A stretch of 64,000 bases of DNA, taken from the IMG/VR virus record IMGVR_UViG_3300036766_002281, positions 1 to 64,000 of that record; one strand, written 5' to 3'. This DNA comes from a virus. Of the stretch, positions 12,494 to 30,015 are shown one piece after another (the first letter of the stretch is position 1; each line of letters starts with the position of its first letter). The position numbers and the translations under genes are program-made. Below the pieces are notes generated by a model that did not search any database, had not been told where the DNA came from, and saw only the letters and a list, made by a program, of their open reading frames with translations.

Positions 12494-14161
12494 ATGTACG
12501 CAGGAAAAAGAGCAAATAGAGAGAATACGGGAGCAGATACTCTATCAGATGGCTTTGTAAAGAGTATGGGAGCAAAGCTCAATTCTAAAAAGAAAGGCAA
12601 TAAGGTAGTAACTTCTAAGCAAAAGAAGCCTATTACAATTAAGATTAGTTATCTGTCGGAACTTAGCAAAAAGGGTTTTGAGAGTTGTGGAACTGGAATC
12701 TACAAAGATGCTAAGCATCATTTGTGGACAGTAGAACGTTCTGCAGATGGTTATACTCTATCAAGAAACGCTGATGAAGATGGTACAGCAGATTCTTCAG
12801 AAACGAAAAAAGAAGGTTCTGAAGAGAAAGAAGCAGATCTTACCTCTTTAATGCAGGAATATGATGAATGGGTAGAAGAAGGTGGCTATCCTGTTGGAGG
12901 TAGTGCTAGTTCAATTCTTAATCAGTTCAGGAAGGAAAAGAACCTATCAAACGAGCAGTTCGAGCAAATGCACAAGGAGTTGAAGTTTGGAAGGAGAGAT
13001 CTAAAACAAGCAGATCAAAAACAAGGTCTAATTCAAGCAATTATTGATGCTATGTTTGAGATAGATAAGACAGATGACGAGGAGTTGGCTCATCAAGCAA
13101 TTAAAATTTTCTGGGAGTTTGGAGTATCAAGTGTTGCTCCAGATCTTGTTGATGAACTCATGGGTGAACTTGAAGAATTAAATTCAGCATCACTGGAAGA
13201 ACTACTTACGAAACTTGAAACTTTAACAAAGAAAAAAGGATCAAAAACTGCTTTCGATCTTGATAGTAAACCAAGTGTAGAAGAGTTAGAAGAAGCAGAA
13301 TCAAATGAGCGTCAAACTCAGATTGGAGAACCATACGAAGAAAAGGATGTAACTGAGTTTTATGACGAGGCAGAAGATAGAGAGGTTATGGAAGGGCCAC
13401 AGACAAAGCCTTACAAGCTAGAAGAGAATGAGACTCCGGCTGAGAAAAAGATATCAGCTATAATCAAAGTTTTTACTAGTTCTGGAAAAGTAAAAGGTTA
13501 TAAAATTGCCTTCGTTGCAACTGATGATACTTACATAGACAAAGGACGTTTAGGAGGGTACATACTCCTAAACGATAAAACAAAACTTCCAGGATATTTT
13601 GAATATAATGAAGAAACAGGTCTGGGTTGGGATTTCGAAAATAATGAGCAGGTAACTGCTGTACTTGATCAACTTTATGATGCTAATGATAATTTTTCGT
13701 TTGGTATTGCATCGTATATTCTTAAAAATACTGACAGAGGTGGAAGTACAAAGATTTCGTACTCAATTTCAGATGTTTTACGCTTAGACAGTTTAAAAAA
13801 GTTTGCTATCAGTAAGACTAGAAAGAAATTAAGGGGGACATCAGTGATAGACGCAGACGCAGACGCAGACGCAGACGAATTAGATGAAGTAGGAAAATGG
13901 TGGGACATGACCTCTGACGACGAACATTCCGAAATTCTTCAAAGTATTGGATATGGAAAAGAAATTATAAGTAAGTATAATTCCCTTACCTGGGAAGATC
14001 AATTATGGGATGTCAAAGAAAGGCTTGAAGATTACTATGACAAACGAGTACGAGTACGAACACGAAGTGAGAATGAGAATGAGAATGAGAATGAGAATGA
14101 GAAAGCCAAAGCCAAAACTAAAGTCAGCAGACCAACAACAATATCATCAAAACCTTTTTAA
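12494..14161 (+). CDS. Large multi-module hypothetical protein
   Basis: A 555-residue acidic protein with no recognised family. It starts after SD GGGAGA. Visible parts: a basic N-terminus (1-50), a region around ERSADGYTLSR, a helical domain at 115-250, GSKTAFDLDSK near 253, an acidic linker, a beta domain at 315-405 (KISAIIKVFTSSGKVKGYKIAFV), an Ala-Asp dipeptide repeat near 455, a short domain with KWWDMTSDDEHSEIL, and an Arg-Val / Glu-Asn low-complexity tail. R-S-A and K-T-A phrases sit at module borders. Its last 152 bases overlap the next large gene in another frame; either a true overlap or a frameshift joins them. Confidence 0.6.
   Translation: MYAGKRANRENTGADTLSDGFVKSMGAKLNSKKKGNKVVTSKQKKPITIKISYLSELSKKGFESCGTGIYKDAKHHLWTVERSADGYTLSRNADEDGTADSSETKKEGSEEKEADLTSLMQEYDEWVEEGGYPVGGSASSILNQFRKEKNLSNEQFEQMHKELKFGRRDLKQADQKQGLIQAIIDAMFEIDKTDDEELAHQAIKIFWEFGVSSVAPDLVDELMGELEELNSASLEELLTKLETLTKKKGSKTAFDLDSKPSVEELEEAESNERQTQIGEPYEEKDVTEFYDEAEDREVMEGPQTKPYKLEENETPAEKKISAIIKVFTSSGKVKGYKIAFVATDDTYIDKGRLGGYILLNDKTKLPGYFEYNEETGLGWDFENNEQVTAVLDQLYDANDNFSFGIASYILKNTDRGGSTKISYSISDVLRLDSLKKFAISKTRKKLRGTSVIDADADADADELDEVGKWWDMTSDDEHSEILQSIGYGKEIISKYNSLTWEDQLWDVKERLEDYYDKRVRVRTRSENENENENENEKAKAKTKVSRPTTISSKPF
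13850..13878 (+). repeat. Hexamer tandem repeat GACGCA x4-5
   Basis: Four perfect GACGCA units plus a partial fifth inside the large gene at 12494. They encode an Ala-Asp dipeptide run. Because the unit is 6 bp, expansion or contraction would not alter the reading frame. Confidence 0.9.
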
Positions 14162-16691: not shown

Positions 16692-16697
16692 ACGAGA

Positions 16698-17084
16698 ATG
16701 ATGACCCAGATTTCAGATTCTATTTTTATTGGAAATAGTCAAGATCATAAACGACTTGATGTTCTAAAAACAACTGGTATAACCGCAGTATACAATGTCG
16801 CAGCAGATTTGAATACTGAATGGTGTACTGAAATTGTTTACGTTAAATGTGGTTTATGGGATGGACCTGCTGGCAGTAATAGAATTGAGTTAGCTGTTGA
16901 TCTGCTTGAGAAGTTAGTCGATGGTGGAGAAAGAGTTCTTATTCATTGCCATGAAGGATGCAATCGTAGTCCATATATTGTGGCAAAGTATTTAGCGAAA
17001 AAGAATGGAACTGATTGGAAGAAAGAGTTTGAAGGCATTAAAGTCAAAAGACCACAAGTCTATATTAAAGATTGGATGAGTTAA
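16698..17084 (+). CDS. Dual-specificity/tyrosine phosphatase-like protein
   Basis: A 128-residue cysteine-based phosphatase of the DSP fold. The catalytic loop is HCHEGCNRSP (His83-Cys84 to Arg90), preceded by the conserved beta strand VLIH. Asp55 in LWDGP is a candidate general acid. The N-terminal IGNSQD and VYNVAAD segments also match DSP proteins. It may dephosphorylate protein or nucleotide substrates in the host. It lies 6 nt after the 893-residue protein; a second, module-tagged phosphatase is at 23595. Confidence 0.85.
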   Translation: MMTQISDSIFIGNSQDHKRLDVLKTTGITAVYNVAADLNTEWCTEIVYVKCGLWDGPAGSNRIELAVDLLEKLVDGGERVLIHCHEGCNRSPYIVAKYLAKKNGTDWKKEFEGIKVKRPQVYIKDWMS

Positions 17085-17109
17085 GTTACGTTAAGTTACG
17101 TTAAGTTAC
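17081..17109 (+). repeat. Ten-base tandem repeat TTAAGTTACG x3
   Basis: Three consecutive ten-base units starting at the stop codon of the phosphatase gene and filling the gap before the next start. They are spaced exactly one helical turn apart, so they could be binding sites; they may equally be slippage products like the other short repeats here. Confidence 0.85.
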
Positions 17110-17125
17110 TAAATGGAGTAATCAA

Positions 17126-17695
17126 ATGCGATTAGAAGAATTAAAAAGTAGTGATGATTTTGAGAATGATGATGATTACTATGAGTACATACATGAATGG
17201 GAAACAGCCGACTGGAAAGATATTGAAGGTTTAATGAATGCTATTGATCATGCGCTGGGAGCTCATGGTCTTGAGTTGATTCAAGGTAAAGGTGAAGATG
17301 ATAATTACTACGTTAAAGTGGAACAACTTGGGGAAGGAAAAGACAAAGGAAAACGATCTGAGATCGAAGCTAGTCTTATGACTAAGATGAAGATCTTTCA
17401 ACGGGAAGCCGTAAGATTAAATCGTAATCCAAAATCAGTTAAAGAATTTAAGCTTTGGTTAGAAGCTCAAGAACAGAGACAAGCTATTGGTAAACAGAAA
17501 GGTCCAGACGTTGGGGAAACGATCGAAGTCTATGACTTTAGAACTGACGAGATGCTTCCTGCAGAAGTTACTAGTAAACCAAGTCTCAACCAAGATACTG
17601 GGCTCGAAGAAGTGGATGTGGTCTTCGAGGATGGTATGGAACACTACGCGGTCTGGAATGATGATGAAATGATGTGGGAATCAGGGGAGCTATAG
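17126..17695 (+). CDS. Protein with internal repeated module and beta-rich C-terminal domain
   Basis: A 189-residue protein. Residues 1-75 are acidic and unassigned. The repeated module starts at Met85 (17378): KIFQREAVRL ... NPKSVKEFKLWLEA. The C-terminal domain (about 125-189, GETIEVYDF ... VVFEDGMEHYAVWNDDEMMW) is clearly related to the cargo of the module protein at 21893 (IDIVFDNGLETTAIWYPEDSRW). This is one of three cases where the module is not N-terminal, suggesting fusion of an upstream ORF. SD TGGAG precedes the ATG. Confidence 0.65.
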   Translation: MRLEELKSSDDFENDDDYYEYIHEWETADWKDIEGLMNAIDHALGAHGLELIQGKGEDDNYYVKVEQLGEGKDKGKRSEIEASLMTKMKIFQREAVRLNRNPKSVKEFKLWLEAQEQRQAIGKQKGPDVGETIEVYDFRTDEMLPAEVTSKPSLNQDTGLEEVDVVFEDGMEHYAVWNDDEMMWESGEL

Positions 17696-17699
17696 TTTA

Positions 17700-17885
17700 A
17701 TGATAAACAGCATAAAAGTTTCAGATATAATTGATCGTAGTGATTCTCCAAGAGCAGAGTTAGATAAGCATATCGACAAAATAAACTTATCTGCTGATGA
17801 GAAAGAACGCTTACGAAAACTAATTAGTGACGCATTAGATCAATCCTACCAAGAAGGAATTTGGGCAGGACAGGAATCTAGATAG
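17700..17885 (+). CDS. Small helical hypothetical protein
   Basis: A 61-residue acidic, helical protein (DKHIDKINLSADEKERLRKLI) with no known family. It starts 4 nt after the previous stop and ends 11 nt before the next gene, so it fits the operon. No membrane segment or Cys pair. Confidence 0.55.
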   Translation: MINSIKVSDIIDRSDSPRAELDKHIDKINLSADEKERLRKLISDALDQSYQEGIWAGQESR

Positions 17886-17896
17886 GGAAATGTGAG

Positions 17897-18559
17897 ATGA
17901 AAAAATACGAGCTAACCAACGAGACAACTCAATCTGCTGCTGGAGCTACTTTGTATAGGATCAAATCCTTAATCAAATCATCAGCAGATTTTGGCATTAT
18001 CGATTCCGGAGAACTAGGCGGGTTTGTTGAGAGTGAGGACAATTTAGCACATGATGGTCAATGCTGGATTTCTGATAATGCACAAGTCTCTGGCAACGCA
18101 CGGGTCTTTGGAAGGGCACAGGTCTCTGGAAATGCAAAAGTATTCGGCGACGCGTGGGTGGCTGGCGAAGTACAAGTCTATGACAACGCCCAAGTCTATG
18201 GAAATGCGCGGATCTCTGGGAGTGAGAAAGTTTATGGGGATATGGAAGTCAAAGGAGACGAGAAATCAACCCAGAAGGAGGGTAAAAATATGCTAAACAA
18301 GATCGAAAAGTTTCAACGTCAAGCAAAAGCTCTTGGACGAGATGAGAACTCTGTTGAAGAGTTTAAAATGTGGTTGAAGGCAGAAGAGGGAGATTCACTC
18401 AAGTTTGAAACCACAAGTGATGAAGAAGTCCATAGCAATATAGATGACATCATATCCGATTTGAATGATGTAAAGAGTTTAGGCGGTAGAGACGATATCA
18501 AAGAAAGATTACGTAATATCAAACATACTTTAGATGACATTATTAATTACTACAGATAA
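17897..18559 (+). CDS. Hexapeptide-repeat beta-helix protein fused to the repeated module
   Basis: A 220-residue protein. Residues about 45-120 are left-handed beta-helix hexapeptide repeats of the 'polymer-forming' type (NAQVSGNARVFG, RAQVSGNAKVFG, NAQVYGNARISG). The repeated module begins at Met132 (18290), followed by a helical tail related to other module cargos (DDIISDLNDVKSL). A strong SD, AAGGAGGG (18275-18282), lies 7 nt upstream of Met132, so the module part could also be made separately. This looks like a fusion of two once-separate genes through loss of a stop codon. Confidence 0.7.
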   Translation: MKKYELTNETTQSAAGATLYRIKSLIKSSADFGIIDSGELGGFVESEDNLAHDGQCWISDNAQVSGNARVFGRAQVSGNAKVFGDAWVAGEVQVYDNAQVYGNARISGSEKVYGDMEVKGDEKSTQKEGKNMLNKIEKFQRQAKALGRDENSVEEFKMWLKAEEGDSLKFETTSDEEVHSNIDDIISDLNDVKSLGGRDDIKERLRNIKHTLDDIINYYR

Positions 18560-18569
18560 GGGAGATAAC

Positions 18570-18869
18570 ATGCTATCAAAAATCAAAGAATTTCAACGTC
18601 AAGCAAAAGCTCTTGGACGAAATGCCTACAGCATTGAAGAATTCAAACTCTGGCTGGATGCTCAGACCAAAACCGCTGAAAAACCAGTTGAAACAGATCT
18701 AGAACTAGCTGAAGTGGCTTTAGCTAAAGCAACGGCAGCTTATTTGGATGCCCTATTACAAGACTTCGGCAAAGATGTTGTTTTAGATGAGGTAGAAGAA
18801 GCATTGGATGAGCTGACCTCTGAAACTTTTGGTCTTTGGGCAAAAGAAAAGTTTCCTTTAGATATTTAG
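18570..18869 (+). CDS. Repeated-module protein
   Basis: The start is taken at ATG 18570 (SD AAGGGAG) rather than the in-frame ATG at 18534 inside the previous gene. It begins with the module (MLSKIKEFQRQAKAL, then NAYSIEEFKLWLDA), followed by QTKTAEKP, and then about 65 residues of helical cargo (LAEVALAKATAAYLDALLQ). The K-T-A at residues 34-36 is the proposed processing site. No function is known. Confidence 0.7.
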   Translation: MLSKIKEFQRQAKALGRNAYSIEEFKLWLDAQTKTAEKPVETDLELAEVALAKATAAYLDALLQDFGKDVVLDEVEEALDELTSETFGLWAKEKFPLDI

Positions 18870-18930
18870 GTGATGTCAGATCTAGAAAACCATCTCAGGA
18901 AGAGGAATAACCCGAACTAGGAGTAAGATT

Positions 18931-19458
18931 ATGTCAAACGTAAACGCAAACGTAAAAGATGTAGCTCATTATGAAGAGTACCAAAAGGAAGTAGAAACAC
19001 ATAAATTTGTTAGCTGGGGTATAGGTATAGGTATAGGATTAGAATTAGATAAACCTTATATTGTGGCTCCTTTAGTTGGCAAACTAGTTTTTTGTGATGA
19101 ACAAGTTGATTTGGATTCTGATTATCCATGGGATAAAAAACTTCTTGCCCCCGATCCAAGAAAAAGCCCTACTTCTCGTAGAGCAGCAATGATGTATAAA
19201 TTTGTTACCTGTGGAAGTAGTGTAAAAAAAGCAAGCGAAGAAATAGTAAAAAATATAAGTATGGTTTTGAATTGTTACCCAGATTTTCAGCTGGTAGTAC
19301 AAATTGCTTTGGCAGAACCTTATGAGCTTAGACGTTCTGTTGATGGGACAAAAACTTCTCGGTCTTTCGAGAAAATCGAAGGGGAATCCTACGTTGAAGA
19401 TTGTGGGTTTGCCTGCGTTGTGCAAGGTTGTATTGTTAAGAATCCTAGATGGGAATAG
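18931..19458 (+). CDS. Hypothetical protein with Gly-Ile repeat
   Basis: A 175-residue protein, unrecognised. It contains a Gly-Ile dipeptide run encoded by a GGTATA hexamer array (19018-19038) and later several Cys residues without ribbon spacing. The N-terminus carries another near-repeat (NVNANVKD). SD TAGGAG precedes the ATG. Confidence 0.55.
   Translation: MSNVNANVKDVAHYEEYQKEVETHKFVSWGIGIGIGLELDKPYIVAPLVGKLVFCDEQVDLDSDYPWDKKLLAPDPRKSPTSRRAAMMYKFVTCGSSVKKASEEIVKNISMVLNCYPDFQLVVQIALAEPYELRRSVDGTKTSRSFEKIEGESYVEDCGFACVVQGCIVKNPRWE
19018..19038 (+). repeat. Hexamer tandem repeat GGTATA x3
   Basis: Three perfect GGTATA units plus GGA within the 175-residue protein, encoding Gly-Ile repeats. 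Confidence 0.85.
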
Positions 19459-19491
19459 GTAAAAAGGAAATTACTAGACTAGGGAAATAAA

Positions 19492-19719
19492 ATGACACTT
19501 TCTGAGCTAAGGACATTGATTGGTAATAAATATCTTTATACTGATTTCTATACTGATTGGGAAAATAAAGGGTATGGATTTAGTTTTTCTATAATAGAAG
19601 ATTCTAAAAATAAAAAAATTTATACTTTTCCAGGATTGTTTCCTGATTACAAAAGTAGAGATTTGACAGTTAAGTATATGAGACAAGTGTTTGTGCCTGA
19701 TCCTGAGGAAATAATATGA
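19492..19719 (+). CDS. Small hypothetical protein
   Basis: A 75-residue aromatic-rich protein (KYLYTDFYTDWENKGYGF). No family recognised. It overlaps the next start through ATATGATAG, indicating coupling with the 529-residue protein. SD AGGGAAA upstream. Confidence 0.5.
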   Translation: MTLSELRTLIGNKYLYTDFYTDWENKGYGFSFSIIEDSKNKKIYTFPGLFPDYKSRDLTVKYMRQVFVPDPEEII

Positions 19720-21305
19720 TAGAAACTATAATCTTTAAAGATCTTTTACGTTTAACTGCTGATAAAGAAGGGTTTGTAGCCCTAAACACTTCTCGGCATA
19801 CAAACAAGTGGGTAGCTGGACTTCCAGAAGAGTTGTGGGAAAGTATCTACGAGGTCAAAACAGGTGATAGAGTTGATCTAGCTTTTGTATTTAGACCAGA
19901 TGCAAAGTACGATCATGCGAAACTTGCTCTTTGGCGTAATCATTTTGGAGATGCCCCTAGATTAGAAGATTACAAAGCAGACCATGCTGAAGAGTTTGGT
20001 ATTGACGAAGAAGAGTTAGAACAGTTTGAGAACGCACAGGGAGAGAAAGAGGAAATCTATCGCAATGATCGTTACCAGGCTACCAACAAGGATGCCGCTA
20101 ATTGGCTGTTGAACATTCCAATGAAGTTTCTTGAACGGTATTTCTATTCACGTACTACTCCAGAAGAGATTGTAAGCATCAGGCACGAACTGATCAATAC
20201 CCTAGAAGGATTTGAAGCACAGCTCGAGCAGATTGGAGTCGACCCATCGGAAGTAAAGGAACTGGAATCTGAGTTTGAGACTGTAGCCACCCCTCAACAA
20301 ATGGATAGGGCATTAGAAGATTTGTACAAGTTTGGGAAAGACCATGGCGTCTGGTTTGAAAGCACTTTAATGAAAGGTAGTGCAGTTACGGCTTCCAGAG
20401 TTTATAAACGATTGGTAGATGGGTGGAATAGAATAGTTGAACCAGATTGGAGTCCGAAGATGGATAAAAGTCTGAATACAGTAGTAATTGAATTCTATGA
20501 TGGGCGGACGGAAAATGTTTTAACTGAAGAACAGTTAGATGAGTTCTTGGAAGAACAATTCTCTTACAATGATATGAATGCTGGAAAGGGTTTTAAAGTT
20601 TTTAAACGAATGAGTTATCAGGATTATCAAGTTGCGGTAAACGAAATGATTGATGAGATCTTTCCCGGGCATAATATTGGATCAAGCGTGCTAGATAACT
20701 TGTGGAGAGATGGGTACAAGATTGCAACAGTAACTTTGTACAATCGGGTTTGGTATGATAAGTGTGCCCCAGATCTTAATCAACCAAGTAGTTTTGTTGA
20801 GCCAAAGATTGTGGGAATGAACCGATATTATGAAGTAGTACAAGCTCTCGATCAAATGAATACTGCGATTGGGCATTCCGTATTGAATTGTTTCAGCGAC
20901 CTTATCCTGTTTAAGAAATCAAACGCTGTAGGAAGAAAAGCACATGATCAGGATTCAGATACTGTTAGTTCCCTTGACTTGATACTCTTGAACAAGACTG
21001 TAGAAGCATTAAATAGCAGAGGACTTTCGGTAAAGGTAGAAGACTATATCGATTGGCTGACTGGAAATGTGACAAAAGGAAGTTCCCGTTTCGACCAGGC
21101 TATTAAACTCTTCTTAACAGAACCAGTTTATAACACGTTTAAGCATTTGAATCTTGTAGATGCTAAGGTTAAATTCGAACTAGGTCTTGGCCCACCTACG
21201 GTAGACGGGATCGATGTAAGTATGAGTCCAGAAAAAGAGTCACTACAGTTACTGCCGGGATTTACTGATGCAACAGTGGAGCCGCCAGTAGTAATAACTA
21301 GGTAG
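19716..21305 (+). CDS. Large hypothetical protein, candidate virion-associated
   Basis: A 529-residue soluble protein of unknown family. Landmarks: FKDLLRLTADKEGF at the N-terminus, an acidic helical region at 85-135, AANWLLNIPMKFLERYFYS near 145, GSAVTASRVYKRL near 225 and an alpha/beta C-terminal half. L-T-A-D and V-T-A-S phrases are reminiscent of the K-[ST]-A junctions elsewhere. Overlaps the preceding stop by 4 nt. No catalytic motif seen. Confidence 0.55.
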   Translation: MIETIIFKDLLRLTADKEGFVALNTSRHTNKWVAGLPEELWESIYEVKTGDRVDLAFVFRPDAKYDHAKLALWRNHFGDAPRLEDYKADHAEEFGIDEEELEQFENAQGEKEEIYRNDRYQATNKDAANWLLNIPMKFLERYFYSRTTPEEIVSIRHELINTLEGFEAQLEQIGVDPSEVKELESEFETVATPQQMDRALEDLYKFGKDHGVWFESTLMKGSAVTASRVYKRLVDGWNRIVEPDWSPKMDKSLNTVVIEFYDGRTENVLTEEQLDEFLEEQFSYNDMNAGKGFKVFKRMSYQDYQVAVNEMIDEIFPGHNIGSSVLDNLWRDGYKIATVTLYNRVWYDKCAPDLNQPSSFVEPKIVGMNRYYEVVQALDQMNTAIGHSVLNCFSDLILFKKSNAVGRKAHDQDSDTVSSLDLILLNKTVEALNSRGLSVKVEDYIDWLTGNVTKGSSRFDQAIKLFLTEPVYNTFKHLNLVDAKVKFELGLGPPTVDGIDVSMSPEKESLQLLPGFTDATVEPPVVITR

Positions 21306-21358
21306 AACAACGAAATGTATAGAGCTGCGAACATGTACGCATGAAGGAGTTTATGCTT

Positions 21359-21544
21359 ATGTTCAAGTTCACTGACGATGATGAAGTTTTGTTACGTTGC
21401 TTGAATGCCTATTTAGATTGTCCAGGATGTAAAGGGCAGTTAGTCATTACGCACATAGAATTTTCGAATACATTTTTGAGATTTGTTCCAGTTAAGAGCT
21501 GTCTATCATGCAAATCAGATTATTTTATTACTGAGTCAGATTAG
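21359..21544 (+). CDS. Small zinc-ribbon protein
   Basis: The frame opens at 21341, but AAGGAG (21344-21349) sits 9 nt before ATG 21359, so that start is preferred (61 aa). CPGC near 20 and CLSC near 50 form a zinc ribbon; the sequence ends SDYFITESD. Function unknown. Confidence 0.6.
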   Translation: MFKFTDDDEVLLRCLNAYLDCPGCKGQLVITHIEFSNTFLRFVPVKSCLSCKSDYFITESD

Positions 21545-21564
21545 GAGCAAGCAAGCACGCACAA

Positions 21565-21732
21565 ATGGAATGCCTACATTTAGAACTAATTAGAATCGAC
21601 AAGGAAGACAGTTGGCTGTTCTACCAGTGTAAGAATTGTCATTTCGAAACGGAAGTGAAGGAAACTGAATTTTACAAATCAATGACAGAAGAAGAGAGAA
21701 AACAAGTTCACGAACCTTTAGATGGAAATTAA
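21565..21732 (+). CDS. Small protein with Cys pair (55 aa)
   Basis: Fills part of the gap before the next module gene. It contains CKNC (22-25), an earlier Cys-His pair (MECLHLE), and an acidic helical tail (TEEERKQVHE). The Cys/His set suggests one zinc site. No clear SD. The coding potential looks real but the family is unknown. Confidence 0.45.
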   Translation: MECLHLELIRIDKEDSWLFYQCKNCHFETEVKETEFYKSMTEEERKQVHEPLDGN

Positions 21733-21768
21733 TTAAAGTTAATAAACCTAAGGAGAAATCAAACGAAC

Positions 21769-21891
21769 GTGTTCAATCCTACTCAACCTGCTAGTAAAGT
21801 ATCTAAACCGAAAGCAAATATTGTAAGACCATTTGAAAAGATAATGAGACCTAAAACAAAAGTAATTAAAATAAAATTTGAAGGGAATTAA
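21769..21891 (+). CDS. Small basic peptide (40 aa)
   Basis: A GTG-started ORF with AAGGAG about 13 nt upstream, ending directly before the next module gene. Basic and Pro-rich (SKVSKPKANIVRPFEK, RPKTKVIKIKF). No family known; it could be a nucleic-acid-binding peptide or a spurious ORF. Confidence 0.35.
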   Translation: MFNPTQPASKVSKPKANIVRPFEKIMRPKTKVIKIKFEGN

Positions 21892-21892
21892 C

Positions 21893-22213
21893 ATGCTATC
21901 AAAAATAAAAGAATTTCAACGTCAAGCAAACGAACTTAAACGGGATGAGAACTCAGTGGATGAGTTTCGTCTTTGGTTAGAAGCTAAGACAGCAGAAGAA
22001 AAAGTTTTTCCTGAAAATACACTTCCTAGACGTATCCAACCAGGTATTCGACTTGAAATACCTAGTGGAGATATAGTAAAAGTTGTAAGTAAGCCATATG
22101 ATTATATGGACAATACTGTGATTGATATAGTTTTTGATAATGGGTTGGAAACTACTGCTATATGGTATCCTGAAGATAGTAGATGGGATGCCGTAGAAGA
22201 GCCAACTGAATAA
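21893..22213 (+). CDS. Repeated-module protein with beta-rich cargo
   Basis: Starts at ATG 21893 after GAAGGG. Residues 1-30 are the module (MLSKIKEFQRQANELKR, NSVDEFRLWLEA), followed immediately by KTAEEK (31-36). The cargo, about 65 residues (PGIRLEIPSGDIVKVV ... FDNGLETTAIWYP), is a small beta domain related to the C-terminal domain of the protein at 17126. This is a clear example of module, K-T-A, then compact domain. Confidence 0.7.
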   Translation: MLSKIKEFQRQANELKRDENSVDEFRLWLEAKTAEEKVFPENTLPRRIQPGIRLEIPSGDIVKVVSKPYDYMDNTVIDIVFDNGLETTAIWYPEDSRWDAVEEPTE

Positions 22214-22239
22214 GAAGAGCTTATCAACAACGAAGCGGA

Positions 22240-22263
22240 ACCAAGACCAAGACCAAGACCAAG
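22240..22263 (+). repeat. Hexamer tandem repeat ACCAAG x4
   Basis: Four perfect ACCAAG units in the intergenic linker directly before the SD (GGAG) of the next module gene. Confidence 0.9.
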
Positions 22264-22271
22264 GAGATAAC

Positions 22272-22580
22272 ATGCTATCAAAAATCAAAGAATTTCAACG
22301 TACTGCAAAAGAGCTGGATACTGATCCAAATTCAATAGAACAGTTCAAGATGTACCTTGAAGCAGAATATCCTGAAGGTGGAGAAGGTTCTGCAGACGAA
22401 GTAGATTTTGCCATCGAGAAGGTAATTTCTAGTTTGTATGAATTCAAAAATGGGTTGGATAAATTAAGATATACTAACGAATCTATTTTGGAAGAGTTAG
22501 AAAATATGGATATGGTATGGGAAGTATTTAGAACTGCTGTTACAACCTTTGTTGAATCAAACACAGAAGGGGAATCTTAA
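22272..22580 (+). CDS. Repeated-module protein with helical cargo
   Basis: Starts with MLSKIKEFQRTAKEL and NSIEQFKMYLEA, then GSADEVDF near 39-46 (an S-A-D-E phrase where others have K-T-A), then a helical cargo (AIEKVISSLYEFKNGLDKL). SD AAGGAG, 7 nt before the ATG. Related helical cargos occur at 18290 and 22590. Function unknown. Confidence 0.7.
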   Translation: MLSKIKEFQRTAKELDTDPNSIEQFKMYLEAEYPEGGEGSADEVDFAIEKVISSLYEFKNGLDKLRYTNESILEELENMDMVWEVFRTAVTTFVESNTEGES

Positions 22581-22589
22581 GGAGATAAC

Positions 22590-22895
22590 ATGTTAAATAA
22601 AATCAAAGAATTTCAACGTCAAGCAAACAAACTTAAAAGAGATGCCAACAGCGTTGAAGAATTTCGTCTTTGGTTAGAAGCCGATCAAAAAATGATAGAA
22701 CTTAATGCTGGAATTGTTCCTAGCACAATTAAGCAAGTTGACGAAGTCTATTCTCGATTCAAAGGTGCGAAGAATGATCTTACTAAATTGTACCACGAAC
22801 TCAAGGGGGAAGACGCTGTGGATCTTTCAGCAGTTCTTACTTCCATGGATAAGGCCATGGAAGGCCTTGAAACTTTATTACAGAGGTATGCCTAA
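22590..22895 (+). CDS. Repeated-module protein with helical cargo
   Basis: Begins MLNKIKEFQRQANKLKR, NSVEEFRLWLEA, then about 70 residues of predicted helix (QVDEVYSRFKGAKNDLTKLYHEL). SD AAGGAG. No K-T-A follows the module here. It ends one base before the ATG of the cargo-less module ORF at 22897. Confidence 0.7.
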   Translation: MLNKIKEFQRQANKLKRDANSVEEFRLWLEADQKMIELNAGIVPSTIKQVDEVYSRFKGAKNDLTKLYHELKGEDAVDLSAVLTSMDKAMEGLETLLQRYA

Positions 22896-22896
22896 T

Positions 22897-22986
22897 ATGT
22901 TAAACAAAATCAAAGAATTTCAACGTCAAGCTAGCGAGTTAGGAAGAAATCCAAACAGCGTAGAAGAGCTTAAGTTCTGGCTGTAA
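22897..22986 (+). CDS. Solitary repeated module without cargo (29 aa)
   Basis: A complete module (MLNKIKEFQRQASEL, NPNSVEELKFWL) stops with TAA exactly at the end of the module's second helix. The start follows the previous stop by one base (TAATATG). It is either a minimal functional peptide or the remnant of a gene that lost its cargo. The near-perfect match to the consensus makes it a real member of the family. Confidence 0.6.
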   Translation: MLNKIKEFQRQASELGRNPNSVEELKFWL

Positions 22987-23030
22987 GCAATACCGCTATT
23001 GTTATAAACCTATTTGTAGAAAGTGAGGGA

Positions 23031-23432
23031 GTGAATCGATATAAGTATAAAAACGGGGCAATAGTTCGCATACTTACGTTTTTAACAGTTTTAATTCTTT
23101 CTACGAGTATTATAGCGGTACAAGCACGAACACTTCTCTCTACGGTGACTTTACTTAAATTTGAGGATGATTACGATCAGAAGGACGTAGCAGTCATGGC
23201 AGTTGTAGATCGAATAGCAAAAGTTGATGGTGCTCACGGTGGTTTTTATTACGAAGTGAGTTTATATCCAGATGTAGTAGCAGTAGCTTTTACAACACAG
23301 ATAAGTAAAAGGTTAAAGGTTGGAAGCCTAGTTGAAGTCCGTGGACGTTATTTTAAGTCGAACATGTTCATGGGGAACGTTTACAAACGATTTATTATTG
23401 CAGAAAAGCTTCTGGTTCTTGACGTAAGTTAA
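23031..23432 (+). CDS. Exported hypothetical protein with signal peptide
   Basis: A GTG-started 133-residue protein (SD AGTGAGGGA). A basic N-terminus and hydrophobic core (VRILTFLTVLILSTSIIAVQA) form a plausible signal peptide or membrane anchor with a cleavage-like AVQA-RT. The mature part is beta-rich (VAVMAVVDRIAKV, YYEVSLYPDVVAVAF, GSLVEVRGRYF), reminiscent of an OB fold. Likely periplasmic in a Gram-negative host. The 160 bases after it hold no gene or clear signal. Confidence 0.6.
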   Translation: MNRYKYKNGAIVRILTFLTVLILSTSIIAVQARTLLSTVTLLKFEDDYDQKDVAVMAVVDRIAKVDGAHGGFYYEVSLYPDVVAVAFTTQISKRLKVGSLVEVRGRYFKSNMFMGNVYKRFIIAEKLLVLDVS

Positions 23433-23594
23433 ACAGTAATAAATCAAACGAAAGCATCTTAGTTTGCGGACCGAAAATTGAGAAACACCAGCAAAAACGG
23501 TATAACAAAGTAAATCTAAAACTGAGAAAGTAAATCTACGAATAGAATGAAATCAATAGAATTAGAGCCATAAAGGAAATCTAAAAGGAAACAA

Positions 23595-24116
23595 ATGTTA
23601 TCTATTATTGGAGAATTTCAAAGGGAAGCTGTTAAGTTGGCCAAAGATCCTAACTCGGTTGAGGAATTAAAGAGATTTGCTTATGCAAGAATGTCTTTTA
23701 TTCATTATTCTAAAACTGAGATAGAAAATTTAGGAAGTATGAGAGTAAATTCAATTCTTATATCTATTGCGGGACTGAACGATGATTTTGCTGAAGTAGA
23801 TGATTCTCGTTTTAAAGATGTATTACGTTTAAGATTTAGTGATGTAACAAGGGACTTTGGAAAATTTTTAGCTTTTAGAAAAAATCAAGCTGAACAGATT
23901 ATCGCTTTTGTAAATAGAAACATTCCAGTTGATTTTGTTTACATCAACTGCGAACAAGGCAGATCTAGATCGGCAGCTATTCATTCAGCTTTAGAAAAAA
24001 TTTATCATGCAAAAGAGGTTAATTTCCTTCATTGTAATTTACAGGTCAAGGAGACTTTGTTAGATGTTATCAAAAATCAAAGAGTTTCAGAAGTTAGCAC
24101 AAGAATTAGACCGTAA
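23595..24116 (+). CDS. Repeated-module protein with Cys-phosphatase domain
   Basis: A 173-residue protein. Residues 1-30 are a diverged module (MLSIIGEFQREAVKLAK, NSVEELKRFAYA). The rest is a PTP/DSP-like domain: strand VNSILISIAG, and the catalytic loop INCEQGRSRSAAI with Cys119 and Arg125 (C-x5-R). It is thus a module-tagged phosphatase, distinct from the untagged DSP at 16698. SD AAAGGAAA. Its last 53 bases overlap the next module gene in another frame. Confidence 0.75.
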   Translation: MLSIIGEFQREAVKLAKDPNSVEELKRFAYARMSFIHYSKTEIENLGSMRVNSILISIAGLNDDFAEVDDSRFKDVLRLRFSDVTRDFGKFLAFRKNQAEQIIAFVNRNIPVDFVYINCEQGRSRSAAIHSALEKIYHAKEVNFLHCNLQVKETLLDVIKNQRVSEVSTRIRP

Positions 24117-24522
24117 TCCAAACAGCGTAGAAGAGCTTCGGCTTTGGTTAGAGGCTCAAACCAAAACGGCTCAGGATCTTAGTTTTACTTCGGATGTTGA
24201 TGATGTTGATATTCGACCTCGACCAAAAGATGTTGATTTTGTAAATGCAAAAGCCAAAGTATTCTGGGATCTGCAAATGGACGCCCGGGAATATGGGATT
24301 AAGGATATCTACCCAACAGTTAGAAAAGTTGTGATTTCAGGAACGTATGAGTACGCCGTAGATATTGATGAAGAGGCAAGAGAAGAAGAGTTTGAGCTCT
24401 CCATTACAGCGGAAGAATGGAATATAAAAGAGGACTTAATGGGTGCGAAATTTGCTAACGGGTTGTACCCTTCTACAGTAAACGTAGACCAAGAATCAAA
24501 ACAATGTACAGTTGAGTTTTGA
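24064..24522 (+). CDS. Repeated-module protein with K-T-A and alpha/beta cargo
   Basis: Begins MLSKIKEFQKLAQEL, NSVEELRLWLEA, then QTKTAQDL (31-38), an Asp-rich linker, and a ~100-residue cargo (VFWDLQMDAREYGIKDI, VVISGTYEYAVDIDEEA). The start lies inside the end of the phosphatase gene. Function of the cargo is unknown. Confidence 0.7.
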   Translation: MLSKIKEFQKLAQELDRNPNSVEELRLWLEAQTKTAQDLSFTSDVDDVDIRPRPKDVDFVNAKAKVFWDLQMDAREYGIKDIYPTVRKVVISGTYEYAVDIDEEAREEEFELSITAEEWNIKEDLMGAKFANGLYPSTVNVDQESKQCTVEF

Positions 24523-24543
24523 TAGATAGAACGTTACGAACGA

Positions 24544-24936
24544 ATGATATTAGATCTGAAACAATTTAAAAACGATCTTAAGCATTTGAATCGACATGGA
24601 AGTTCCCGGTGCGTTTTAGTAAATGTTTACATGATTTCAGATTCAGAGCTCTATCACCGTTTTGTTACAGAACGTTTGAGAGTAGCATTTCCACTCGTTC
24701 TAGTTGTGGAAGAATCAAAAATTTTTAGTGGTTTTTCAAACGATTCTTATAGTAAAATTATGGATAAAATATACAATCGAGAGATTGTACTGTTTTCATT
24801 TGAGAATGCTGATGTAGGATTTGGTTATAATATTGAGCATCTTCGTAGTAAAGTGCAAGCTGTTGTTGATGAAAGTTTTAGACAAAGAATAGACAAGACC
24901 TTTAAACGTATGGAGAGTGAACATGTTGTCAGATGA
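24544..24936 (+). CDS. Hypothetical protein, possibly a decayed module at its N-terminus
   Basis: A 130-residue protein. The first 20 residues (ILDLKQFKNDLKHLNRHGSS) resemble the first helix and turn of the repeated module but lack the second helix. The remainder is alpha/beta (CVLVNVYMIS, FPLVLVVEESK, EIVLFSFENADVGFG). It overlaps the next gene slightly. No family recognised. Confidence 0.55.
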   Translation: MILDLKQFKNDLKHLNRHGSSRCVLVNVYMISDSELYHRFVTERLRVAFPLVLVVEESKIFSGFSNDSYSKIMDKIYNREIVLFSFENADVGFGYNIEHLRSKVQAVVDESFRQRIDKTFKRMESEHVVR

Positions 24937-27088
24937 AATAGGCGGTAAACTTCTAGATCTTGAACAACGTAAAGAAGCTGCAAAAGTTAGTAATCATCTA
25001 CATACTGCAGTAGAAAAGCTCAGAGCAATAGAAGAAGCTATTTTAAAGTTTTGTACCAAACCTAGAACTTCCAGCCAGGTTATACAGCTCTTTCCTGCTC
25101 GTCCTTTTAACATCTTGGCAATCATGGAAAATCTTAGAGTTAAAGATATGCTTACTCTTGCTGCCAATAAGTATGTCACAAACGTTGAGCATAGAGAGTT
25201 TGATGTCAGCATGACTATGACAGCTGATAGACGCAGCTTTACTTCGAAGACAGAGGAAATGTGGAGCTATTCCGACCAGGAAAGCAAACGTAGGCTTCTT
25301 TCAAAAGCTCATGTAATTCCAGAGAACGTTCCCAGATTCGCAGCAGAAGAATGGGCTCATCTTCCATCATGGGTTCAGAAGGCAGTTGAATATGAGCATA
25401 AGCATCCAGCCATTTTAGCAGAAGTTGAGGGTCAGGCAGAATATCCAGATCGCCCAAGTATTCAAACTATAAAAGATGCAGACGGACAATTCTACGCAGA
25501 AGAAGTTGAAGAGTCTGGAGGAGATTGGGGAGTATTCGATACCGAAGTAGGACATTGTTTTGCTACTTACTCAGGATCAGCTAAAGCAGAAAAAGAAGCG
25601 GATAAAATGAATCAAGAACATGGGCTAGGAAAGTATAAAAAGAAAAAAGCTGATGACGCTCCTGCAACTATAAATGTCAATGAGCAATCGCAACTTCAGC
25701 AAGTTGAAGGTGCAGAAGAAGATCACGGTCCTTCGTGTGAGATCTGTGGTTATGAATTTACCGAATCCCCTCAATTTGGAAACTCAGATATATGCCAACG
25801 TTGTGCTAAGGATCCTAACAAACGAGAACAGTATGCAAGAGATGCTGGTTACGGTAAATGGCGGGGTGGGGACGAACGTAGTCTTGATCAGGCAGTTTCG
25901 GGCGAGATTGTTCCCTTCGGGGATAAATGGTGGAAGTTTACAGGTAGAATGACTTACAAACAATTGCGACCTGGAGTGATTTTTGGAGCCACTTATAGAG
26001 CCTTTAACGCCGGGTTTACTATTGAAGAGTTTCTTGGCTATTCTGGAAGAGATGTTAAGTATGGAGAAGGTGGTAAAAAGTATGATACCATCCAAGAAGT
26101 TTTTAAAGCTGAAGGAGTTAATTCCTTAAAGGCATTAGAAGCAAAACAAGATGAAGGGGAATACGGTTTTCATACCTACATGTGTACCAAGGAGTTGAGT
26201 GGTAAGCTGGAAGAGGGATGTTACTACTACATTAGCGAAGGTAGATGGAGTAGAGGATCTGGTGCTGAGGCATTAAGCTTCTGGACAGTTGAAGAAATGG
26301 CAAAGCCAGAAAAGTATGAGGATGAAGAAGGTGGAGCCTTCGCACCAAGAAAGCATTCTCCTAGAGATCTATCGGTATCTGATCTTAAGGAAAGCCGGAG
26401 ACGAAGACAAGCTTGTGATAAGGGGCAATTTATCGAGCTTACATCAGTACAGGATGTTGATACAGGAGTAACTACAGATAATCCAATAGAGCTCCAGGAA
26501 GTGGTTGACTCTGGATTGAGTGCCAATTACAAAGCTACGTTTATTACCAATGGTAGATCCAGAACTGCAATGTTGTCTACCTTGCCTGTAAAGAAGATAA
26601 AAGTTAAAACAGCAGAACCATTAATTCGACAAGTTAAATCGGCAGATTCCAGTTTCGAAGAACATGTTAAGAAATTAATGCAAGAGGCTTTCAAGTATTA
26701 TTCTGAACAGACAAAAATTATTCCAGACACAGTAGATATCTGGAACGACGTTTTGAACAGTTTGTCTAGAGAACGTGGTACTACCTTAACCAAAGAAGAA
26801 GAGAATGAAGTCTGGGCTATTATTACTGGCGAGGAACCAGAAGGCGGAGGCGAAGACGAGATTGATATCAGTGGCTGTGGAACACAGATTAAGCAATTCC
26901 AAAGTGAAGCCAAACGATTAGGTCGTAATGCTAACAGTGTTGAAGAACTTAAACTATGGATGGAAGCTGACAACGCTGAAAAAGAAGAACCTTTCAAATG
27001 GAAACACAAAACTTATGAAGAACCACCACCTACAGCAGAACAAATATTACAAGAAATGGAAGATAAAGAATTTGATTCGTTCTGGTAA
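24923..27088 (+). CDS. Large multi-module protein with internal repeated module
   Basis: About 721 residues from ATG 24923 (SD GGAGA). Modules: an N-terminal helical region; DADGQFYAEEVEESGGDWGVFD near 185; KKKADDAP near 245; a zinc ribbon (CEICGYEF ... CQRC) near 275-300; a domain with YYYISEGRWSRG near 440; KVKTAEPL and QVKSADSS near 570-585; a helical domain; and near the C-terminus a repeated module (IKQFQSEAKRLGR, NSVEELKLWMEA, about 26887-26970). K-[TS]-A phrases again lie at domain borders. No catalytic motif recognised; candidate processed virion-internal protein. Confidence 0.6.
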   Translation: MLSDEIGGKLLDLEQRKEAAKVSNHLHTAVEKLRAIEEAILKFCTKPRTSSQVIQLFPARPFNILAIMENLRVKDMLTLAANKYVTNVEHREFDVSMTMTADRRSFTSKTEEMWSYSDQESKRRLLSKAHVIPENVPRFAAEEWAHLPSWVQKAVEYEHKHPAILAEVEGQAEYPDRPSIQTIKDADGQFYAEEVEESGGDWGVFDTEVGHCFATYSGSAKAEKEADKMNQEHGLGKYKKKKADDAPATINVNEQSQLQQVEGAEEDHGPSCEICGYEFTESPQFGNSDICQRCAKDPNKREQYARDAGYGKWRGGDERSLDQAVSGEIVPFGDKWWKFTGRMTYKQLRPGVIFGATYRAFNAGFTIEEFLGYSGRDVKYGEGGKKYDTIQEVFKAEGVNSLKALEAKQDEGEYGFHTYMCTKELSGKLEEGCYYYISEGRWSRGSGAEALSFWTVEEMAKPEKYEDEEGGAFAPRKHSPRDLSVSDLKESRRRRQACDKGQFIELTSVQDVDTGVTTDNPIELQEVVDSGLSANYKATFITNGRSRTAMLSTLPVKKIKVKTAEPLIRQVKSADSSFEEHVKKLMQEAFKYYSEQTKIIPDTVDIWNDVLNSLSRERGTTLTKEEENEVWAIITGEEPEGGGEDEIDISGCGTQIKQFQSEAKRLGRNANSVEELKLWMEADNAEKEEPFKWKHKTYEEPPPTAEQILQEMEDKEFDSFW

Positions 27089-27186
27089 GTCTTAATTAAA
27101 AATGATGGAAGAATATTAATTCGAAAGGATTAAAACAATTAACAAACTAACAATCAACATTAAACGAAACGAAGGAGAACACGACT

Positions 27187-27591
27187 ATGTACGCTTTCAT
27201 CGCAGCTTACAAACTTTATATTACCAATGGTGGTTCTGGATCAGCAACAAGTTTAACTGACTTCTTGACCTGGTTTAATGGCATTAGAAATGCCCTTACT
27301 CAGGAGCAGCAGATTTATATTGATCTTCTGAGTAATTCTGCTTATGCAACGTTCAGAAACAAATCTTCTGCTGTAATTCAAGAAGCAGTGCATGGTCTTG
27401 AATTTATTGATAACGTTGATAACTATACAGATCCAGCAAATACTGCCACTGCCTATCCAACAACTGTTTCAGGAAGTACTGTGATGGCCACAGCATTTAT
27501 TAAGGCAGAGCTGGCAATGTTTGATAAGGTTATTAACGAGAATGGGCAATCGAGTAATAGTCAGGTAAATACTCTTCAAACGCTTTTATAA
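27187..27591 (+). CDS. Hypothetical protein, possible structural
   Basis: A 134-residue, Ser/Thr/Asn-rich protein (TNGGSGSATSLTDFL, TATAYPTTVSGSTVMATA), compositionally like virion proteins and unlike its charged neighbours. Strong SD AAGGAG. It follows a 98-base gap with no recognisable signal. Function unknown. Confidence 0.55.
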   Translation: MYAFIAAYKLYITNGGSGSATSLTDFLTWFNGIRNALTQEQQIYIDLLSNSAYATFRNKSSAVIQEAVHGLEFIDNVDNYTDPANTATAYPTTVSGSTVMATAFIKAELAMFDKVINENGQSSNSQVNTLQTLL

Positions 27592-27632
27592 GCGTAAGTG
27601 ATCAAACGAAAGAAAGGTAGGCAATTAAATCC

Positions 27633-27929
27633 ATGCTGGACCAAATCAAAGCATTTCAAAAGGAAGCTAAAGCTCTTGGTCGTAATGAGAACTCTGTGGA
27701 GGAGTTCAAGCTATGGATTGAGAGCGAGTCTCAGTCTCAATCGCAGACCAAGCAAGCTGCTGAACCAGAGGAAGATTACGATGAAGATAGAAAAAAGGTA
27801 ATGGGAGATATCAAAAAGGAAATTGATTTTGTGTTAGAAAATTCATTTCCAGAGTTAGAGAACTTAGAGACTGTTATGTTCTTTGAGGACAATGATCCTG
27901 TTATAAAAGTAAGATTTATAGGTAGGTAA
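27633..27929 (+). CDS. Repeated-module protein
   Basis: MLDQIKAFQKEAKALGR and NSVEEFKLWIES form the module, followed by a Ser-Gln repeat (SQSQSQTKQAAEPEE), where K-Q-A-A replaces K-T-A. The ~60-residue cargo (RKKVMGDIKKEIDFVLENSF, VMFFEDNDPVIKVRFIGR) is alpha/beta. It is 7 nt from the next module gene. Confidence 0.7.
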   Translation: MLDQIKAFQKEAKALGRNENSVEEFKLWIESESQSQSQTKQAAEPEEDYDEDRKKVMGDIKKEIDFVLENSFPELENLETVMFFEDNDPVIKVRFIGR

Positions 27930-27936
27930 AATACCA

Positions 27937-28239
27937 ATGCTGAATAAAATTAAAGAATTTCAACGTCAAGCAAACGAACTTAAACGAGATCCAAACTCTT
28001 TGTCTGAGTTCAAACTCTGGCTGGATGCTCAGACCAAGACAGCTGCTTCAGACACTGTAAAAGCTATTTTCACTTTAGAAATCAGAGATGATGATACTGG
28101 ATATCCTGTTGATGTAGATTACAGTGAGTATGAGGAAATGATGGAAAAACTTGAACAGATACTTATGAGAGCAAGATACAAAGGAGAAGGGTTAAACGCA
28201 GTAATTACTTCCCATGCTGATTCTGGTTGGCAAGGGTAA
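27937..28239 (+). CDS. Repeated-module protein with K-T-A
   Basis: MLNKIKEFQRQANELKR, NSLSEFKLWLDA, then QTKTAASDT (31-39), and a ~60-residue alpha/beta cargo (AIFTLEIRDDDTGYPVDV, MMEKLEQILMRARYKG). The start follows GGTAGGTAAAATACC. Function unknown. Confidence 0.7.
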   Translation: MLNKIKEFQRQANELKRDPNSLSEFKLWLDAQTKTAASDTVKAIFTLEIRDDDTGYPVDVDYSEYEEMMEKLEQILMRARYKGEGLNAVITSHADSGWQG

Positions 28240-28252
28240 ACTGTAAGAGCCT

Positions 28253-29275
28253 ATGAATTACAAATACCTGATGGTAAAAGTGGCTCATTTCCAGCACGAT
28301 GCCCATAATCCGAATTCGATAGATGAATTTAAACTTTGGTTAGAAGCCAGAAACAGGCATGCCTGGATTGAACCACTGGGGGATGAAGATACTTTAAGAA
28401 CGTATCTGAAAGAAAACCATCCAGAATCTTTGGATGGTAACCATCCTGTGTATCTTTTTGTGGATGAGTCGTTTGAAGAACATAAACTGATGTTAGTAGG
28501 CTCCACGCCTATTACTCTAAACTTTTTGAAGAACTTTAAAAGATTGTATAATGAGACAGAGCAAGAACGTGAAGACGAAGCGGCAGAAAAAGAAGCACTA
28601 CCACCAGTTCTATCAAATAAAAAATCGTATAAAAATGGAGCGCCCAACATGTTAAAAGAACTAAATCAATTTCAGAAGGAAGCAAAACAACTAGGAAGAA
28701 ATGAGAACTCTGTTAATGAGTTTATATTATGGCTGGAAGCAAGATCGCAATCTAAAACGGCATTAAGTGATGAGGCAAACAAATTCATTAGTGACAAAAT
28801 TAGTAAGCTTCATGACGAAGGTTATGAAGGGGATCAAGCTATTGCTATAGCTCATGAGTATGCCAGAGATGCTGGCTACGATGTTCCAAGTCCAAAAAGT
28901 TCTTATACAAAAACGAAAAAGAAAGCTGATCCAGATCCAGAACCTGAGGCAGACTTTGGACCAGACGAAGACTTGGGGGATCAAATAGAAGACGTAATGG
29001 AACATGAGGATGACCCAGAAAAGGAAGCCAAGCAGTTGATGGCTCTTTGGGAAAAAGGTGAGATGAGTTTGAAAGAGCTTCACCACCATATCTTAGAAGA
29101 ATATGGTACGGAGCAGGAAGAAGAAAACATTGAAGACATCGTTTTTGATCTAATTGACAAGCACGTCAAAGAGCTCAAGGGCGAAACCGAAGATGAGAGC
29201 GAGAGCGAGAGCGAGCTCGAAGAAGAGGAAGAGGAAGAAGGAGTAGGCGAAGAAGTTGGAGTACCAGAAAAATAG
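28253..29275 (+). CDS. Protein with two repeated modules
   Basis: A 340-residue protein. A diverged module lies at residues 9-34 (VAHFQHDA..NPNSIDEFKLWLEA), followed by a small alpha/beta domain. A second, intact module begins at Met133 (28649: MLKELNQFQKEAKQLGR, NSVNEFILWLEA), followed by SQSKTALSDE, a helical domain (ISKLHDEGYEGDQAIAIAHEYARDAGY), KKKADPDPEPEADFG, another helical domain, and an acidic Ser-Glu repeat tail. It looks like a tandem fusion of two module genes; Met133 could be an internal start. Confidence 0.65.
   Translation: MNYKYLMVKVAHFQHDAHNPNSIDEFKLWLEARNRHAWIEPLGDEDTLRTYLKENHPESLDGNHPVYLFVDESFEEHKLMLVGSTPITLNFLKNFKRLYNETEQEREDEAAEKEALPPVLSNKKSYKNGAPNMLKELNQFQKEAKQLGRNENSVNEFILWLEARSQSKTALSDEANKFISDKISKLHDEGYEGDQAIAIAHEYARDAGYDVPSPKSSYTKTKKKADPDPEPEADFGPDEDLGDQIEDVMEHEDDPEKEAKQLMALWEKGEMSLKELHHHILEEYGTEQEEENIEDIVFDLIDKHVKELKGETEDESESESELEEEEEEEGVGEEVGVPEK
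29195..29218 (+). repeat. Hexamer tandem repeat GAGAGC x3-4
   Basis: Three perfect GAGAGC units plus GAGCTC at the 3' end of the two-module gene, encoding a Ser-Glu run. Confidence 0.85.
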
Positions 29276-29276
29276 G

Positions 29277-29663
29277 ATGAAAATAATCGTGTACAAGACT
29301 AGGGAAATAGAGAAGATAATTTCGTTTTTCCAGCATTTACCCGATGACTGGGATAGTTACGGGAGCCCACGTCCTAGTGCTAAAACTATTTATTCGTTAG
29401 AAAAGTTTACATCAAAGTTCTTTAAATTTTTCTATCTTCGAAATTCTGTTTATGCTATTCCAGGTGGGGGTATCCAACTTGATTTTAGGTATGAGCAGAA
29501 AGTTTTAGGATTTGAAATCTTTTCCAACGGGGAAATTCGTTATGAGCAGTATATAGGTAATAATCTGCTTTCCTGCAACGATCCTATTTGTAATAAGATT
29601 TCTTTGAAGGAAGATCTGGCAGATGCTCAGTTTAATGCTTTACTAAACTGGTTGATGGAGTAG
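29277..29663 (+). CDS. Hypothetical protein with W-D-S-Y-G motif
   Basis: About 128 residues from ATG 29277, one base after the previous stop. Landmarks: HLPDDWDSYGSPRPSAKTI near the N-terminus, VYAIPGGGIQLDF in the middle, GFEIFSNGEIRYEQ. I recognise this layout from small bacterial and phage proteins, some near toxin-antitoxin loci, but no biochemical function is established to my knowledge. Confidence 0.6.
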   Translation: MKIIVYKTREIEKIISFFQHLPDDWDSYGSPRPSAKTIYSLEKFTSKFFKFFYLRNSVYAIPGGGIQLDFRYEQKVLGFEIFSNGEIRYEQYIGNNLLSCNDPICNKISLKEDLADAQFNALLNWLME

Positions 29664-29670
29664 CGAGTAA

Positions 29671-30015
29671 ATGATTCATGCGATAAAGGTTTTTCAACGT
29701 GAGGCAAGAGAGTTGGGTAGAGATGCCAACAGCGTTAAAGAGTTAAAACTTTGGTTTCAGGCAATGACTGACGCTAAGTTTGATTACATTTTTGAGAAGC
29801 ATCCAGAGTTTAAAACGCAATCAAGTCATGAAATAATACAAATACTTAAGAATAGGTATCATCTGGACGGAGAAGAGATTACAGATTTTTTAAAACGTTT
29901 TATGCTAAGAGATGAAAAAGAAGCAGTAGCTCCTTATGATGTGGATCAGACGGAGGGTCGGCCAGGACATTCTTATGAAGAAATTCGTGATGTGTTAACT
30001 GGATTAGGAATATAA
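29671..30015 (+). CDS. Repeated-module protein with helical cargo
   Basis: MIHAIKVFQREARELGR, NSVKELKLWFQA is the last module copy in the window. The cargo of about 80 residues is helical (FDYIFEKHPEFKTQSS, ITDFLKRFMLRDE, SYEEIRDVLTGLGI). No K-T-A. Starts 8 nt after the previous stop. Confidence 0.65.
   Translation: MIHAIKVFQREARELGRDANSVKELKLWFQAMTDAKFDYIFEKHPEFKTQSSHEIIQILKNRYHLDGEEITDFLKRFMLRDEKEAVAPYDVDQTEGRPGHSYEEIRDVLTGLGI

Follow-up and report, generated by a model that had tools for sequence, protein, structure and literature searches.

A two-helix module repeated in fourteen genes of a tailed phage: a candidate prohead-targeting tag

We detected a module of ~31 residues, present in 15 copies on 14 genes of a tailed phage, in a stretch of 64,000 nucleotides (the window: positions 1 to 64,000 of the 74,629-b IMG/VR record IMGVR_UViG_3300036766_002281). 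All copies lie on the + strand between 17378 and 29763, upstream of the terminase, portal, head maturation protease and major capsid protein genes, which were identified by PHROGs. Judged from sequence, the module probably serves to address proteins for packing into the virus head, because half of its copies end in a motif resembling a head-assembly protease site. We suggest that it acts as a prohead-targeting tag, a functional analogue and not a homologue of the capsid-targeting sequence (CTS) of phage T4, with a probability of about 0.57.

Translation and alignment of the copies gave the consensus M-L-x-K-I-K-E-F-Q-[RK]-x-A-x-x-L-x-R-[DN]-x-N-S-[VI]-x-E-[FL]-[KR]-x-W-L-E-A, with F8, Q9, A12, L15 and S21 invariant across 14 aligned copies. 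A profile of all copies recovered exactly these 15 from the six-frame translation of the window, the next matches being at chance level (E > 2). This test is circular; a second one therefore left out each copy in turn and searched for it with a profile of the remaining 14. Every copy was recovered, with i-Evalues from 2e-21 to 6e-8. The module thus stands at all 15 places and in the reading frames given by the earlier note, the start placed there at 26887 being corrected to about 26879. The decayed copy suspected at 24544 found no support (1.6 bits), nor did another candidate decayed copy at 27187, and the consensus search of the full record gave the same 15 copies and no others. They are as follows.

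17378..17467, + strand: copy 1, internal in the open reading frame (ORF) 17126-17695, with a beta-domain cargo after it; RQA at 17477-17485; hidden Markov model (HMM) i-Evalue 1e-19, or 1e-15 with this copy left out
18290..18382, + strand: copy 2, in ORF 17897-18559 behind a YdcK-type beta-solenoid (PF18836, 6e-12); Shine-Dalgarno-like (SD-like) aaggagg just upstream
18570..18662, + strand: copy 3, N-terminal; KTA at 18669-18677; helical cargo
21893..21985, + strand: copy 4, N-terminal; KTA at 21986-21994; its beta-domain cargo is a paralogue of the 17126 cargo
22272..22364, + strand: copy 5, N-terminal; helical cargo; no [KR]xA downstream
22590..22682, + strand: copy 6, N-terminal; helical cargo; no [KR]xA downstream
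22897..22986, + strand: copy 7, stand-alone 29-residue ORF with a stop in place of E30
23595..23687, + strand: copy 8, N-terminal; phosphatase-like cargo (phrog_5614, CEQGRSR loop); ORF to 24116
24064..24156, + strand: copy 9, N-terminal; KTA at 24163-24171
26879..26968, + strand: copy 10, close to the C-terminal end of a multi-bead protein (723 aa, 24917-27088); lacks a start codon
27633..27725, + strand: copy 11, N-terminal; KQA at 27750-27758
27937..28029, + strand: copy 12, N-terminal; KTA at 28036-28044
28277..28348, + strand: copy 13, diverged, with a 4-residue deletion, near the N-terminus of ORF 28253-29275; RHA at 28355-28363; left-out i-Evalue 6e-8
28649..28741, + strand: copy 14, internal to ORF 28253-29275, with SD-like sequence and ATG retained; KTA at 28754-28762
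29671..29763, + strand: copy 15, N-terminal; ORF to 30015

Eleven of the 15 copies start a protein and four are internal (17378, 18290, 26879 and 28649). Two of the internal copies, 18290 and 28649, retain the SD-like sequence and ATG, and the 26879 copy lacks a start codon; the 28277 and 28649 copies share one ORF, hence the 14 genes. In the 17897-18559 protein the beta-solenoid runs in frame into a module whose own SD-like sequence and ATG are retained, which suggests either stop loss or internal initiation. In the 22897 ORF a TAA stop takes the place of the E of WLEA. Several copies have a common SD-plus-ATG context upstream, aaggagataacATG; the promoter scan gave matches at shuffle level.

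AlphaFold2, supplied with the 14-copy alignment, predicted that the module folds on its own as two helices (2-14 and 22-37, joined by a loop) with a mean predicted local distance difference test (pLDDT) of 91. Both helices had been described beforehand as amphipathic, which is clear for helix 1 and does not hold for helix 2 by hydrophobic moment; the net charge of the module is near zero. The description of the cargos as unrelated is mostly right, except that 17126 and 21893 have beta domains that are paralogues of each other. Two phosphatase-type proteins are encoded, a dual-specificity phosphatase without the module at 16698-17084 (PF00782, 3e-15) and the module-bearing phrog_5614 protein at 23595-24116.

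The candidate processing motif was counted in the 14 residues downstream of the module, for the 14 copies that have sequence after it. [KR][TQ]A was found there in 7/14 copies (0.7 expected; 0 of 20,000 shuffles reached 7) and [KR]xA, as KTA, KQA, RQA or RHA, in 8/14 (3.2 expected), at varying spacing. We argue that the motif was kept or regained, because the spacings and residues differ (AKTA, SQSKTA, SQTKQA, EQRQA, NRHA). According to the tripeptide statistics, KTA (19 vs 6.1 expected) and KEA (27 vs 9.9 expected) are in excess. The excess of [KR][TQ]A is concentrated in the cluster at 12494-30015, with 25 occurrences vs 4.1 expected (6-fold, z 10.7), ~6 of them inside module helix 1 (FQRQA/FQRTA) and ~19 elsewhere; outside the cluster it stands at 0.9-1.9x expected in the replication, middle, head and tail regions. 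The same region-wise comparison gave no enrichment of A[TQ][KR], the motif in reverse.

The same motif class was found at the propeptide boundary of the major capsid protein (MCP) in this phage and its relatives. The relatives with 50-81% capsid-protein identity include two IMG/VR contigs (G1 and G2), contig G005 and Virus Rctr197k (KX853510; 197 kb; DAMO/AAA enrichment culture). Bacillus phage G, at 30.6%, stands further away, and a second scan gave 48 relatives. The head genes of the window are as follows.

39253: terminase (PHROGs)
53970: portal with an intein (PHROGs)
57565..60456, + strand: fusion of the head maturation protease with a long scaffold-like region (phrog_18299, 4e-39); YGK bead, described below, at 58672-58761 (A2 match 5e-17), then KKA at 58774-58782
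61388..62542, + strand: MCP (phrog_2522, 9e-53); KEA at 61646-61654 and KSA at 61679-61687 at the boundary between propeptide and body

The capsid proteins of this lineage begin with a propeptide-like extension of ~90-100 residues; the phage G protein lacks this extension and begins at the boundary. [KR]xA occurs around the boundary in 43/45 distinct sequences (21.3 expected, at most 33 in 5000 shuffles), in forms that include KKA|S, YREA|S, KTA, RQA and KSA, and within the 23 residues past it in only 1/41 vs 14.8 expected. Since presence at the boundary and near absence just after it is the pattern expected of a maturation cleavage motif, we infer that [KR]xA is the head-protease site of this lineage. 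A terminal cut in the protease-scaffold protein was also considered and left unused: KQA/RQA stands near the C-terminus in G2 and Rctr197k, just KA/RA in this phage and G1. A 57-aa ORF at 32813-32986 resembles the DYEGWA+K segment of the MCP (E about 1e-3 to relatives) and is possibly a remnant of a duplicated capsid gene.

Comparison of the protease-scaffold with proteins of Rctr197k exposed another recurrent element of ~30 residues, the YGK bead, A-[VL]-D-S-x-A-x-x-Y-W-x-x-Y-F-x-x-Y-G-K (also seen as YW..YFG.YGK..T+DI). It has 1-3 copies per genome in at least 18/35 relatives, typically one on a ~110-aa protein and one on a long multi-bead protein. [KR]xA stands immediately before the bead in 29/42 distinct examples and within 50 residues after it in 38/45 (26 expected). 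Like the module, it recurs in this gene neighbourhood, on a small protein as well as on large multi-bead proteins, with [KR]xA mostly ahead of the bead and often behind it. Its sequence is unrelated to that of the module, it stays at 1-3 copies per genome, and in this phage it is confined to the protease-scaffold, followed by KKA.

The long proteins of the relatives consist of small domains with KTA/KQA between them (20 vs 2.6 expected in relative G006), and have beads in common with the 12494 and 14010 proteins of this phage. The proteins concerned here are the following.

12494..14161, + strand: KxA-bearing protein without the module; N-terminal domain common to a relative's 559-aa protein with two YGK beads
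14010..16691, + strand: 893-aa beads-on-a-string protein with seven [KR][TQS]A; one bead common to the 1353-aa YGK-bearing protein of relative G004
24917..27088, + strand: 723-aa multi-bead protein with five [KR][TQSK]A and module copy 10

Across the lineage (14010-16691 and 24917-27088 here; G006 and Rctr197k), the beads-on-a-string class has zinc ribbons, beta domains and helical domains between its KTA/KQA motifs. This motif architecture in the relatives means that the neighbourhood of the module cluster has counterparts with the same motif and a different recurrent element. Neither the YGK bead nor the lineage-wide [KR]xA motif was found in the literature (open-licence papers).

The module itself appears private to this phage within the sequences reached. 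A strict degenerate pattern found it in none of 2.9 million viral contigs or 85,000 genomes, near-identical records possibly lying outside this view, and a profile search found it in none of the ~40 relatives identified at the MCP level. The comparison of an HMM of the copies with phage genomes, which the earlier note had proposed, thus gave no module outside this record. There was no real match by tblastn of the module consensus and the 893-aa and 723-aa proteins against 50,697 phages, no significant match of the module in Pfam, the PDB or phage collections, and hence no detected homology to known CTS or internal proteins there. The phrog_28431 match (function not assigned; best E 0.001, single copies) was set aside because unrelated control genomes gave hits in this search as well. 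A kinship with the conserved C-terminal scaffold domain ('QEFKTAF') was considered and rejected, and no closer relative was found with TerL and the 723-aa protein as baits.

In T4, the first 10 residues of IPIII suffice as a CTS, of which residues 4 and 7 direct targeting and residues 8 and 10 processing (PMC9026906). The module resembles the CTS (IPI-IPIII, gp21) as a short, common and mostly N-terminal element on small proteins that are otherwise unrelated, followed in 8/14 testable copies by what is likely a protease site. It differs in its length (~31 residues and two helices vs 10 residues), its 15 copies, the internal position of some of them and the lack of detectable homology. The T4 gp21, phiKZ and SPN3US proteases cut after glutamate (PMC5694885, PMC10052503), unlike the site proposed here, which ends in alanine. 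The module would work like a CTS, yet it falls outside the CTS class on sequence and cleavage residue; the analogy drawn beforehand would hold for function, and not for kinship or cleavage motif. In phiKZ and SPN3US, head and ejection proteins lose N-terminal propeptides at A-X-E, a motif also present inside the propeptides, and the paralogs gp53 and gp54 have an identical N-terminus (PMC5694885, PMC10052503). These systems have N-terminal elements with a protease motif on head proteins, as is proposed here, but their propeptides are mostly >100 residues, are cut after E and are not a small tag spread across unrelated cargos.

We propose that the self-contained two-helix tag, fused mostly N-terminally to small cargo proteins, would bring its cargo into the prohead core by binding one of the core or scaffold components; the long region joined to the head maturation protease is the presumed partner. 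At head maturation, the protease would cut after [KR]xA in the linker past helix 2. A second cut may occur after A12 in helix 1 (FQ[RK]xA, positions 8-12), leaving a 12-residue N-terminal peptide close in length to the 10-residue T4 CTS, which is a resemblance only. The cut would free the cargo inside the head, and ejection with the DNA could follow, so that the module would be a targeting element and its cargos would reside in the virion and be ejected. The tag would be an invention independent of the T4 CTS, expanded by old duplications in this one phage.

The capsid address proposed in the earlier note gains indirect support from the capsid-boundary motif, which follows 8/14 copies, is concentrated in the cluster and flanks the beads of the relatives. 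Several observations weigh against it: [KR][TQ]A reaches only 1.3x expected in the phage's own portal-to-capsid genes, the sites in its own capsid protein are KEA/KSA, 6/14 testable copies have no downstream [KR]xA, and four copies are internal. The motif probabilities are optimistic, since the copies are related and the counts not fully independent; none of the relatives searched has the module; and open-licence papers yielded neither a virion proteome nor a protease motif for this lineage. The conservation of the two-helix domain where no [KR]xA follows, the internal copies and the tubulin/FtsZ-family protein encoded at 33630 would also suit a docking domain that is never removed and binds another partner (a host protein, the tail or baseplate, the FtsZ/tubulin-like protein, or other tagged proteins), with [KR][TQ]A as inter-domain linkers. 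We consider docking unlikely, given that the motif enrichment is specific to cluster and orientation, that the same motif class stands at the capsid-protein boundary, and that the module is absent from all other proteins of the record, those of the tail among them. The tagged proteins could also be core or scaffold components which shape the head and leave after proteolysis, the module serving core assembly without host delivery. In T4, the head protease also cleaves the core proteins, into small fragments (PMC5694885); many cargos here are small, acidic and helical, and the 22897 copy has no cargo; nevertheless, several cargos are enzyme-like or folded beta domains (phosphatase, beta-solenoid), which are unusual in scaffolding, and this explanation seems to us quite improbable.

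One copy weakly matches PF18780 (12.6 bits), the repeats associated with homing endonucleases; kinship with them would make the module a pair of DNA-binding helices. The score falls far short of the curated threshold (26 bits), only 18 positions are matched and the net charge is near zero, so that we rejected this reading as very improbable. The common upstream context of several copies might also point to recombination cassettes kept as DNA for gene swapping. Between pairs of copies, the mean proportion of differing synonymous sites (pS) is 0.74, which is saturated, the non-synonymous counterpart (pN) is 0.29, and the median dN/dS in unsaturated pairs is 0.25. Saturated synonymous sites in a conserved protein indicate that the duplications are old and that selection keeps the protein, whereas cassettes would be expected to have near-identical DNA; we give this explanation hardly any weight.

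Other genes of the phage include a tubulin/FtsZ-family GTPase (33630-34571; PF00091, 8e-36) and a TnpB/OrfB-IS605-type protein (34842-36008; PF01385, Cas12f1-like TNB), of which relative G004 has a 38% identical copy. The portal-protein intein (53970-57290) is of the Hint type with a LAGLIDADG-like domain, and an intein with an HNH domain lies in a 668-aa protein at 42355-44361.

Taken together, these data raise the possibility, which we hold at somewhat less than even odds, that in a lineage of large tailed phages a [KR]xA head-maturation protease frees many small domains inside the capsid. The domains would be carried as beads of polyproteins and, in this phage, additionally as single proteins, each with its copy of a newly evolved two-helix address tag, a modular loading of about a dozen different proteins for host delivery. 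If true, this would be a second, unrelated solution to the problem solved by the T4 CTS, on a larger scale (one tag, 14 genes, one phage), and would give a new protease motif, [KR]xA, for the whole lineage. The virion-packaged proteins of uncultured phages would then be predictable from sequence alone, and the tag and protease would form an orthogonal pair for loading proteins into capsids.

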